Below are positions 35,298 to 41,925 of a DNA stretch of 64,000 nt, one piece after another. Origin of the DNA: Gemmatimonadaceae bacterium. GTDB taxonomy: Bacteria; Gemmatimonadota; Gemmatimonadetes; Gemmatimonadales; Gemmatimonadaceae. The notes beneath the pieces were generated by a model that searched no databases, was not told the DNA's origin, and saw only the letters and a list, made by a program, of their open reading frames with translations. The stretch lies in assembly GCA_019752115.1 (NCBI GenBank), contig JAIEMN010000043.1, positions 1 to 64,000 on the forward strand, in the 5' to 3' direction. Position 1 is the first letter of the stretch; each line of letters begins with the position of its first letter. Made by a program: the position numbers and the translations under genes.

Positions 35298-35993
35298 TCA
35301 CGCCGCGGCGCGCACGGTATCAAGCCGTAACAGGAAGGCGGGGACGGGCTCCCCGGCCGTCCGCAGTTCCGCCAGCACCCGCCGCGCCACCGTCGGTGCA
35401 TGCGCTTCGAAGAACTCCGGCTCCCGCTCCAGCACCATCAACGCACGCTGTACATCGCCGCGCCGCGCGATGCCGAACCCACGCGCCAGCATCCATTCGA
35501 GCGCGCTCCAGAAGCGAAGCCGTTCGAGGACAGGGTTCACGAAGTTGGACAGAATGCAGTAGTTGGTCTCGCGCGTATCCAGATGATGCGCCCGATGCTG
35601 CGCGGGCGACTGCAGCACCCCCGCGCGCTGCAGCCACCGCACCACCCGTGGTGTACGGCGCGGCGACTGATGACTCCACTTGTGGATCTGGTTCATGTTC
35701 ACACCAAGGCTCAGCCCCAGCACCAGCATCCAATTGAGCCCACCGGCGAGCCACGCCACACCGGCAATGAGCAGCGCAATGACGAGCAGCGCGCGTGAGC
35801 TGTTGAACCACGACTTGGCGAGCAGCGCGCGCGGCGCGTAGTGATGCAGAATGTTTGGGCGGGTGATGTGCGTGCCGATCACGGGCCAGAACGGATCGCC
35901 ATAGGCGTCCTGCCACCAGTGAAAGACGCCCGACACGAAGTCGGTGATCAGCCAGACGCCGATGATTTGTGCGACGATGAGTGCAACGAACAT
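35298..35993 (-). CDS. Plasmanylethanolamine desaturase-like protein (CarF/PEDS1 family)
   Basis: 231-residue integral membrane desaturase of the CarF/TMEM189 (Kua) family, which introduces the vinyl-ether bond of plasmalogens in Myxococcus and animals. Conserved histidines are His25 (GVFHWWQDAYG), His42, His50/51 (HHYAP), His104/108 (NQIHKWSH) and His133/136/137 (QHRAHHLDTRETNYC), then NFVNPVLE. The pattern supports a di-iron site; hydrophobic segments lie about 1-23 and 66-100. No ether-lipid synthesis gene is adjacent. Substrate is inferred from family only. Confidence 0.85.
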   Translation of the reverse strand: MFVALIVAQIIGVWLITDFVSGVFHWWQDAYGDPFWPVIGTHITRPNILHHYAPRALLAKSWFNSSRALLVIALLIAGVAWLAGGLNWMLVLGLSLGVNMNQIHKWSHQSPRRTPRVVRWLQRAGVLQSPAQHRAHHLDTRETNYCILSNFVNPVLERLRFWSALEWMLARGFGIARRGDVQRALMVLEREPEFFEAHAPTVARRVLAELRTAGEPVPAFLLRLDTVRAAA

Positions 35994-40496: not shown

Positions 40497-41657
40497 TTAC
40501 GGCGTCGCGCTCCGGCGAGCTGGCTCGAACAGCTGCTTCTCCGGGGCGCGTGTCACGCTCGGCGGATCCGGTGGCGCCGTCGCGCCGCGCGCGGCCATCG
40601 GCGTGAGCCAGCTGCTCAGCCACCACTTGTACTTCGCATCCTGATGCAGCACCAGGAAGCGCGGCCCTGAACCCGCCATCGCCGACGCGGTGAAGGGCAG
40701 CATGGCGCTCTGGAGGTACTCGCCCTTGGCGTTGTAGTAGTCGATGACGCGCCCCTGCCGGTCGTTCTCCAACCCCACGAGCACGACATAGCCGCCATCG
40801 ACGATGGACGCATCCACGATGAACGGATGCTCCACCGCGCTCCCCGCCAGGGCCGGCGGCTCGCCGATCTGTCGCGGAGCGGCGCCGTCACCGGGGCGGC
40901 GGAGACGCTGGATGCGTGGTGGCGCCCCAGCGCGCGCACTGTCGGGGGCACTCACGATCAGCACCTCGCGCGACGTGAGCAGCAGGCAATGCCGGTTGTC
41001 GCCCCCGCCAAAACGCAGGCGCGCCGCGGTCTCCCCGACAATGCGGTGTCGCCCGATCAGCGAATCCTCGGCCGCGATGGCGGTGAGCGTATACGCTTCG
41101 AGCGCGCGATTCTCACCCAGTGCGCGCACATGCAGCAGCGTGGCCGGCGTGACGGTGCACAGGCGATAGCTCCCGCCGCGCAGCAGGGGTAGGTCACGGC
41201 GGAACACGAACCCGCCAAGCGACTCGCGCATGAGAATGCTGCTGGCACTGTCGATCACATCCACATGGCCATCTTCGGTGGCACGCGACAGCTCCACCGG
41301 CGCGACGAGGTCGCGCGGCACCTGCGCATTCAGCACGGAGTCCACACGCCCCGGGCGCGCACTCAGGAGCATCCCGTGGCCATGTAGCTCAAACTGGGAG
41401 ATGCGCGTAGGGTTTGCCTGCAGCAACGCCACGGTGGTCCCACTTGCCCGGAACACGAGCGGGACCATCGTGCTGTCCACATCCGACGTGATGTCGCTCC
41501 GCCACTCTTCGCGCTTGGCCGGATAGATCGTGCGCGCCTTGAGTGCCGGTTGCAGCGACTCGGGCGCCAGCGCGCGCGGATCGGTCGTCTCGGAGCAGGC
41601 CGCGAGGCCCAACGCGGCGACCGCCAGCCGCGCCGCGCGGGGGCTTACTGCCCGCAC
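40497..41657 (-). CDS. Lipoprotein, possibly six-bladed propeller
   Basis: 386 residues from a GTG at 41657; lipobox ALGLAAC. The body has repeated hydrophobic strand pairs (GHGMLLSARPGRVDSVL, HVDVIDSASSILMRESLGGF, GSYRLCTVTPATLLHVRALG, HPFIVDASIVDGGYVVLVGL) consistent with a propeller, but no named family is certain. It overlaps the Cys-rich peptide gene by 13 bases, so the two are co-expressed. That pairing is reminiscent of the small peptide/6-bladed propeller pairs known from Bacteroidota. Confidence 0.65.
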   Translation of the reverse strand: MRAVSPRAARLAVAALGLAACSETTDPRALAPESLQPALKARTIYPAKREEWRSDITSDVDSTMVPLVFRASGTTVALLQANPTRISQFELHGHGMLLSARPGRVDSVLNAQVPRDLVAPVELSRATEDGHVDVIDSASSILMRESLGGFVFRRDLPLLRGGSYRLCTVTPATLLHVRALGENRALEAYTLTAIAAEDSLIGRHRIVGETAARLRFGGGDNRHCLLLTSREVLIVSAPDSARAGAPPRIQRLRRPGDGAAPRQIGEPPALAGSAVEHPFIVDASIVDGGYVVLVGLENDRQGRVIDYYNAKGEYLQSAMLPFTASAMAGSGPRFLVLHQDAKYKWWLSSWLTPMAARGATAPPDPPSVTRAPEKQLFEPARRSATP

Positions 41658-41875
41658 ACGTTCCAGCGCACCACCGTGTCGTCATTGCAGCGGTAGGTGC
41701 AGAAGCCGCAGTTGGCGCCGCCGATATTCGTGCAGGCGCCGTAGCCCGGCACGCGGGCGTAGCGTGGGCACGACTTCCGCGCCTGCGAGTTGAGGGCGGT
41801 GGGCATCAGCAGCAACAGCGCGGCGAGCGGGCCGAGGTCCACACGACGGGACCAGAAAGCGAAGAAAGAGCGCAT
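41645..41875 (-). CDS. Exported six-cysteine peptide (76 residues)
   Basis: N-terminal signal peptide with a basic region, hydrophobic PLAALLLLMPTALN and predicted cleavage near QA (residue 32). The mature ~44 residues contain six cysteines at 36, 48, 56, 59, 63 and 74 with the pattern C-x11-C-x7-C-x2-C-x3-C-x10-C. Three disulfides or a metal site are possible. No family is recognised. It is upstream of and overlapping the lipoprotein gene, 50 bp after the GH35 stop. Confidence 0.72.
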   Translation of the reverse strand: MRSFFAFWSRRVDLGPLAALLLLMPTALNSQARKSCPRYARVPGYGACTNIGGANCGFCTYRCNDDTVVRWNVCGQ

Positions 41876-41925
41876 GACTGGGAACTACGCAGAAAGAGAC
41901 GGTCCGGCAAGCGGTCGCCGCGCCA

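Follow-up and report, generated by a model that had tools for sequence, protein, structure and literature searches.

The pair described here lies within 64,000 nucleotides of contig JAIEMN010000043.1 from a Gemmatimonadaceae bacterium (the window, i.e. the whole stretch of DNA analysed). It comprises a gene for a small exported six-cysteine peptide and a gene for a lipoprotein, preceded by a promoter-like element that sits between a GH35 galactosidase gene and the peptide gene (Table 1). A preliminary description had reported a 76-residue precursor with a signal peptide and six cysteines, overlapping the lipoprotein gene by 13 bases. Both open reading frames were found where they had been described, on the minus strand, with the same cysteine spacing and the same overlap.

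Table 1. Features of the peptide/lipoprotein pair (window coordinates) and of a related cassette in genome G090
Feature	Position	Strand	Description	Basis
Promoter-like element	41882-41911	minus	CTTGCC-N18-TAGTTC (= TTGCCG, 17-bp spacer, TAGTTC)	conservation
Peptide precursor	41645-41875	minus	exported, six Cys, 76 aa	ORF reading and orthologues
Signal segment and mature part of the peptide	mature part ~41645-41785	minus	signal segment ~ residues 1-30	
Overlap of peptide and lipoprotein genes	41645-41657	minus	13 bp	lipoprotein start inside the last codons of the peptide
Lipoprotein	40497-41657	minus	divergent beta-propeller, 386 aa, GTG start, previously unannotated	orthologues and alignment
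G090 cassette (undescribed)	L054:3321-391 (G090:C12)	minus	six-Cys peptide, DsbA-like protein, PF17170 propeller, 163-aa protein	

The peptide is short, cationic and Cys-rich. A hydrophobic segment lies N-terminal to the mature part, whose sequence is ARKSCPRYARVPGYGACTNIGGANCGFCTYRCNDDTVVRWNVCGQ. The cysteines follow the pattern C-x11-C-x7-C-x2-C-x3-C-x10-C, and the gaps of 11-7-2-3-10 are identical in 14 of 14 genus peptide sequences measured. Fifteen residues are invariant when the homologue from outside the genus (G090, see below) is included, and nearly all of them belong to the mature part. All six Cys are invariant in the orthologue alignment, as is W71, the single Trp of the mature part. 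Across ten lineages, the mature peptide has a mean identity of 85%. The median dN/dS among the genus orthologues is 0.14 for the mature peptide, 0.61 for the signal peptide and 0.25 for the lipoprotein. Both peptide and lipoprotein are real genes under purifying selection.

The six cysteines probably form three disulfides. Structure prediction yielded, with fair confidence, a four-stranded all-beta miniprotein (pLDDT 81.5, pTM 0.55). Because the scores were far lower for two of the five models, the four-strand fold remains a proposal. A fold search with the model against the PDB gave no match at E<=0.001 and only SH3/Tudor-like chance matches. Relatives of the peptide, searched for in the genome collection with a query pattern of one short stretch, were restricted to Gemmatimonas and to records of Gemmatimonadota or bacterial metagenome-assembled genomes; no wider family appeared.

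The lipoprotein carries the lipobox LAAC, and its lipid Cys21 is invariant in 15 sequences. Two more cysteines, 167 and 224, are also invariant and could form a disulfide pair. No Pfam family matches the protein at E<=1, PF17170 included, and scans with Pfam, NCBIfam, PADLOC and PHROG returned no match to either the peptide or the lipoprotein. A PDB sequence search with the alignment profiles of both proteins did not reveal a relative of known structure. A relationship became visible at the profile level: Compared with ten DUF5128-like propellers in hhalign, the lipoprotein profile aligned over 303 columns with a probability of 93.9 and an E value of 1.6e-7, whereas reversed and column-shuffled controls reached at most 0.6%. 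A single-sequence hhalign comparison with one propeller from G090 was not significant.

For the lipoprotein, AlphaFold gave a poor model (pLDDT 45, pTM 0.51) from an alignment of 15 close sequences. The model displays propeller-like strands with an illegible blade count. Because the model is poor, its structural matches call for careful reading. They are propellers almost throughout, and the realigned list, with Z of 8 to 9, consists of propellers, too. The top match, at E 2e-3, is BtuG2 (BT1954; PDB 8bmz, 8bn0), which covers approximately half of the model with a TM-score of ~0.25. On the profile comparison and the structural matches of this low-confidence model, the protein is a divergent beta-propeller. 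This agrees with the repeated strand pairs noted in the preliminary description.

Conservation of the pairing elsewhere had been set as one test of the module. The lipoprotein is present in 21 of 30 genus genomes, and the remaining nine lack both genes. In all 20 genomes with a readable flank the peptide is located directly upstream of the lipoprotein. These 20 include one genome (G400) in which the contig starts inside the peptide gene and only the C-terminal half of the peptide is visible; the 21st genome (G398), whose contig ends inside the lipoprotein, is outside this count. The genome set is a species sample with many metagenome-assembled members. Both genes are in the same relative frame in other genomes, with similar overlaps or short gaps, and translation of the lipoprotein is probably coupled to that of the peptide through the overlap. 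Searches of 298 and of 395 genomes of the phylum revealed no case in which a member of the peptide family occurs and the lipoprotein is missing, with the G090 cassette as the exception.

The pair recurs intact across related species at differing chromosomal sites. Its order and promoter element are kept while the flanking genes vary. Since the two genes stay together in many species at unrelated spots, it is very probable that their products work together. The presence of the pair is clustered on the rpoB tree (4 changes versus 7.3 when shuffled), but the lipoprotein tree conflicts with the rpoB tree, and two rpoB clades are rejected (p-AU 0.0125 and 0.0085). Because the two trees disagree, the simplest reading seems to be that the pair is occasionally transferred as a unit from one Gemmatimonas species to another. 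Alternatively, the tree conflict could stem from an ancient duplication followed by losses. In a plasmid search, the lipoprotein was absent from known plasmids. A link of the pair to phototrophy (pufLM) was considered and rejected (18/3 versus 5/4, Fisher p 0.15).

An alignment of the upstream regions revealed a single invariant element in otherwise divergent sequence. Its 17-bp geometry is the same in all loci scanned. The -10-like hexamer ends 6 nt 5' of the peptide ATG, which is also the usual distance in other loci; it is 5 bp in the lineage of G331, and a later ATG is found in G296 and G269. A scan with the sigma-70 consensus did not detect a standard promoter at the pair, and TAGTTC is a poor match to the sigma-70 -10 box; the element was recognised by conservation instead. 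From its position and spacing we infer that the element is a promoter and the mRNA leaderless: With the hexamer 6 nt before the ATG, a canonical transcription start would fall on the A of the ATG. A literature search found no study that mapped transcription starts in this genus. Each of the four pair-bearing genomes tested contains the exact motif once, always at the pair, whereas G019, a genome without the pair, does not contain it. Two-mismatch matches are no commoner than those of the reversed control, so that no promoter regulon is visible. This single-copy conserved element might offer a handle on leaderless expression in Gemmatimonas.

The preliminary description had placed the pair after a GH35 galactosidase. 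This gene is indeed adjacent in the window (PF01301, E 3e-101), but neither GH35 nor the other window neighbours are found beside the pair in other lineages. Genes flanking the pair differ between species groups, and for this reason the adjacency of GH35 is incidental to the unit and no maturation gene is conserved. In the window, no thiol oxidase gene is located beside the pair and no cofactor-maturation gene was found among the neighbours searched. Across lineages, no sensor kinase, exporter, processing protease, regulator or transporter is conserved next to it. The best reading of these data is a self-contained two-gene Gemmatimonas cassette with, apparently, its own promoter-like element. 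Two other genes of the window encode an exported protein of 1033 aa with four matches to group-2 bacterial Ig-like domains (PF02368; 32093-35194) and a protein with a lipid desaturase domain (PF10520, E 1e-41; 35298-35993).

Outside the genus, the searches yielded a single relative of the peptide, encoded in G090, a genome of the same family. It is also exported and was detected with E 8.4e-5 in the first search, in which the next matches were at ~4e-3. In the mature part it shares 42% identity with the window peptide, has the spacing 10-7-2-3-9 and retains the core C..C.Y.C...WNVC. The G090 peptide gene is followed by a gene for a DsbA-like protein (PF01323, CPFC site) and then by a PF17170 propeller gene. 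The cassette thus resembles the window pair in having a homologous exported peptide, with the motif CP..C..C..CTYxC..WNVC, beside a gene for a six-bladed propeller. It differs in the DsbA-like gene between peptide and propeller, in its propeller, which matches PF17170 while the window lipoprotein does not, and in a purine-rich ribosome-binding site ahead of the peptide, where the window peptide has a presumably leaderless arrangement.

Exported Cys-rich peptides of unrelated sequence were found near propellers at five other loci of the family (G031, G039, G074 and twice in G090). The protein encoded in between in such cassettes is often DsbA-like or, by sequence reading only, thioredoxin-like; in several cassettes the middle gene has no Pfam thioredoxin match. 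The conserved Trp of the window peptide is absent from some of these peptides. In a strict scan, three loci had such a peptide on the propeller's strand at a distance of at most 1.5 kb and a fourth had one 3.8 kb upstream, versus one on the opposite strand and further off. Looser scans for Cys-rich neighbours were swamped by spurious ORFs, and several of the cassettes were identified by visual inspection. Among the 59 DUF5128 loci examined in the family, the majority are without a convincing Cys-rich peptide nearby, which means that such propellers need no such partner in general. As judged from the sequences of these loci, the combination of Cys-rich peptide and propeller is recurrent in Gemmatimonadaceae, in a subset of propellers only.

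The individual cassettes vary in their make-up. In G031 (L216:8000-10639, G031:C75), the genes for a DUF5128 propeller and an uncharacterised protein are preceded by three genes in tandem for exported peptides with four Cys each (GxCTxLGCxxGxxKCA...YTCYTT). One G090 locus (L217:7538-12060, G090:C24) encodes in series an exported eight-Cys peptide, a DsbA-like protein and a propeller lipoprotein. Both of its flanks contain apparent duplicated pieces of two genes (starting MGERASTFL and MPELPDVAVY), which resembles an insertion with target duplication. In the other (L221:5214-16404, G090:C42), approximately five propeller genes, distributed over both strands, form a dense cluster that also encodes two thioredoxin-like proteins and two exported Cys-rich peptides, all four of them small. 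Two other genus genomes, G039 and G074, encode a second, unrelated six-Cys exported peptide adjoining a DUF5128 propeller and a thioredoxin-like protein that has a single Cys (L242:8533-10750 and L243:9114-11300).

We tentatively propose, with a confidence just short of even, that the miniprotein is a disulfide-stabilised small subunit or resident ligand of the envelope propeller lipoprotein. The near-invariant promoter-like element of the pair would yield a mostly leaderless mRNA for both genes. Translation would pass from the peptide to the lipoprotein via the stop/start overlap, and both products would be exported by the Sec pathway. The peptide is expected to fold as a small all-beta miniprotein with its three disulfides introduced by the general Dsb system, since a dedicated helper like that of G090 is not encoded beside the pair. 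The propeller would be lipidated and anchored in the envelope, probably in the outer membrane. Here, the miniprotein would bind the propeller to form an envelope complex whose fixed ratio would follow from the gene overlap. Our first guess for the complex, by analogy with BtuG and the propeller lids of nutrient transporters (PMC10404256), is that it might capture an extracellular ligand. A mature peptide that is almost frozen while its signal peptide drifts is as expected of a piece that fits a conserved partner. This constancy speaks for a resident subunit rather than a released signal or a weapon, and so does the failure to find solo copies or any exporter, protease, regulator or maturation gene conserved at the pair. 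The gene order kept amid changing neighbours, the tree conflict and the Cys-rich peptides beside propellers in G090 and elsewhere in the family also count in favour of the proposal. Weighing against it are the poor propeller model, the lack of a Pfam match to the lipoprotein, the missing thiol oxidase gene next to the pair, the many DUF5128 loci that have no Cys-rich peptide nearby and the middle genes without a Pfam thioredoxin match.

Alternatively, the peptide might be released as a pheromone or signal, with the propeller lipoprotein as surface receptor or carrier. An exported, short and cationic peptide that is rich in Cys and whose gene is coupled to that of a lipoprotein of the surface type would suit such a role, as would the mobility and patchy distribution of the pair in the genus. 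However, peptide signals usually diversify between species, and the mature peptide is nearly identical genus-wide. Furthermore, neither sensor kinase nor exporter nor processing protease is conserved beside the pair, and with a promoter motif exclusive to the pair, a response regulon is not visible. A signalling function is, in our view, improbable. We assign a similarly low probability to a toxin/immunity system, in which the secreted peptide would attack neighbours and the anchored propeller would neutralise it. The small cationic Cys-rich peptide would fit this explanation, as would a self-contained unit of two genes that has its own promoter-like element, is patchily distributed and shows signs of having moved horizontally, but the diversification typical of toxins is missing: At a mature dN/dS of 0.14, species share nearly the same peptide. 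Moreover, the size of the lipoprotein is large for an immunity protein, models of PADLOC, PHROG, Pfam and NCBIfam give no match, and an exporter or accessory gene is not conserved.

The composition of the related cassettes, with a Cys-rich subunit, a DsbA-like or thioredoxin-like protein and a propeller, recalls mauA, mauD and mauB. The pair might therefore encode a redox enzyme analogous to methylamine dehydrogenase, with the peptide as catalytic subunit that carries a modified Trp or Cys, is held by the propeller and is matured by a thioredoxin-like protein. W71 and the six Cys are invariant, and in Streptomyces, clusters encoding Cys-rich precursors together with MauE/MauD homologues have been proposed to be RiPP-like (PMC7794033). 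The mature peptide, however, contains one Trp and six Cys only, a cofactor-maturation gene is not conserved beside the pair, and the conserved Trp is not common to all peptides of the other cassettes. Such an enzyme is quite unlikely. Least probable is that two adjacent genes merely share a promoter and that their products perform unrelated work without binding each other: The gene order was kept through moves to unrelated sites, solo copies were not found and the homologous peptide outside the genus (G090) also accompanies a propeller.

If the preferred reading, a resident small subunit of the propeller, applies beyond the genus, Gemmatimonadota would possess an undescribed class of two-part envelope complexes. 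In these, a propeller lipoprotein would depend on an exported, disulfide-rich miniprotein as an obligatory small subunit, sometimes assisted by a dedicated thioredoxin-like helper for folding. The Gemmatimonas pair would be a stripped-down, mobile, leaderless version. This wider proposal is speculative, and we regard it as rather unlikely. The original observation has in any case become a defined unit of promoter-like element, miniprotein and predicted propeller that appears to be kept together through moves between species.

Several known systems can be compared with the pair. BtuG2, a surface lipoprotein of Bacteroides with seven propeller blades, serves as the lid of the TonB-dependent transporter BtuB (PMC10404256). 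The window lipoprotein is, like BtuG2, a predicted lipid-anchored envelope propeller; unlike BtuG2, it has no transporter gene conserved beside it. To our knowledge, BtuG has no peptide partner.

In methylamine dehydrogenase, a Cys-rich small subunit with two cofactor Trp and twelve Cys sits on a propeller large subunit and needs MauD and MauE. MauA and MauB resemble the pair in combining a Cys-rich small exported subunit with a propeller, and a thioredoxin-like helper is encoded in the sister cassettes. In contrast to MauA, the window peptide has one Trp and half the Cys, and no quinone-forming machinery was seen. Membership in the methylamine dehydrogenases is not claimed because the cofactor machinery was not seen at the pair.

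NVEALA peptides of Bacteroidota pair with six-bladed propeller lipoproteins, and the preliminary description had suggested a similar peptide/receptor or peptide/carrier module here. A conserved module with a propeller partner was borne out, but the peptide is not an NVEALA peptide. It does not match PF14055 (NVEALA) at E<=1, and the NVEALA motif after the leader is absent from every aligned orthologue, which together rule out membership. Across 150 Gemmatimonadota genomes, no protein exceeded the PF14055 cut-off, which one control genome passed. A literature search found no paper with the word NVEALA. The window pair differs from the NVEALA systems in its phylum, its own conserved promoter-like element and its gene overlap. 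What both have in common is a small exported peptide with several Cys encoded beside a propeller lipoprotein. If the miniprotein is a subunit of the propeller, this would provide the first mechanistic model for Cys-rich peptides near propellers in Gemmatimonadota, and the model may perhaps extend to the NVEALA peptides of Bacteroidota.
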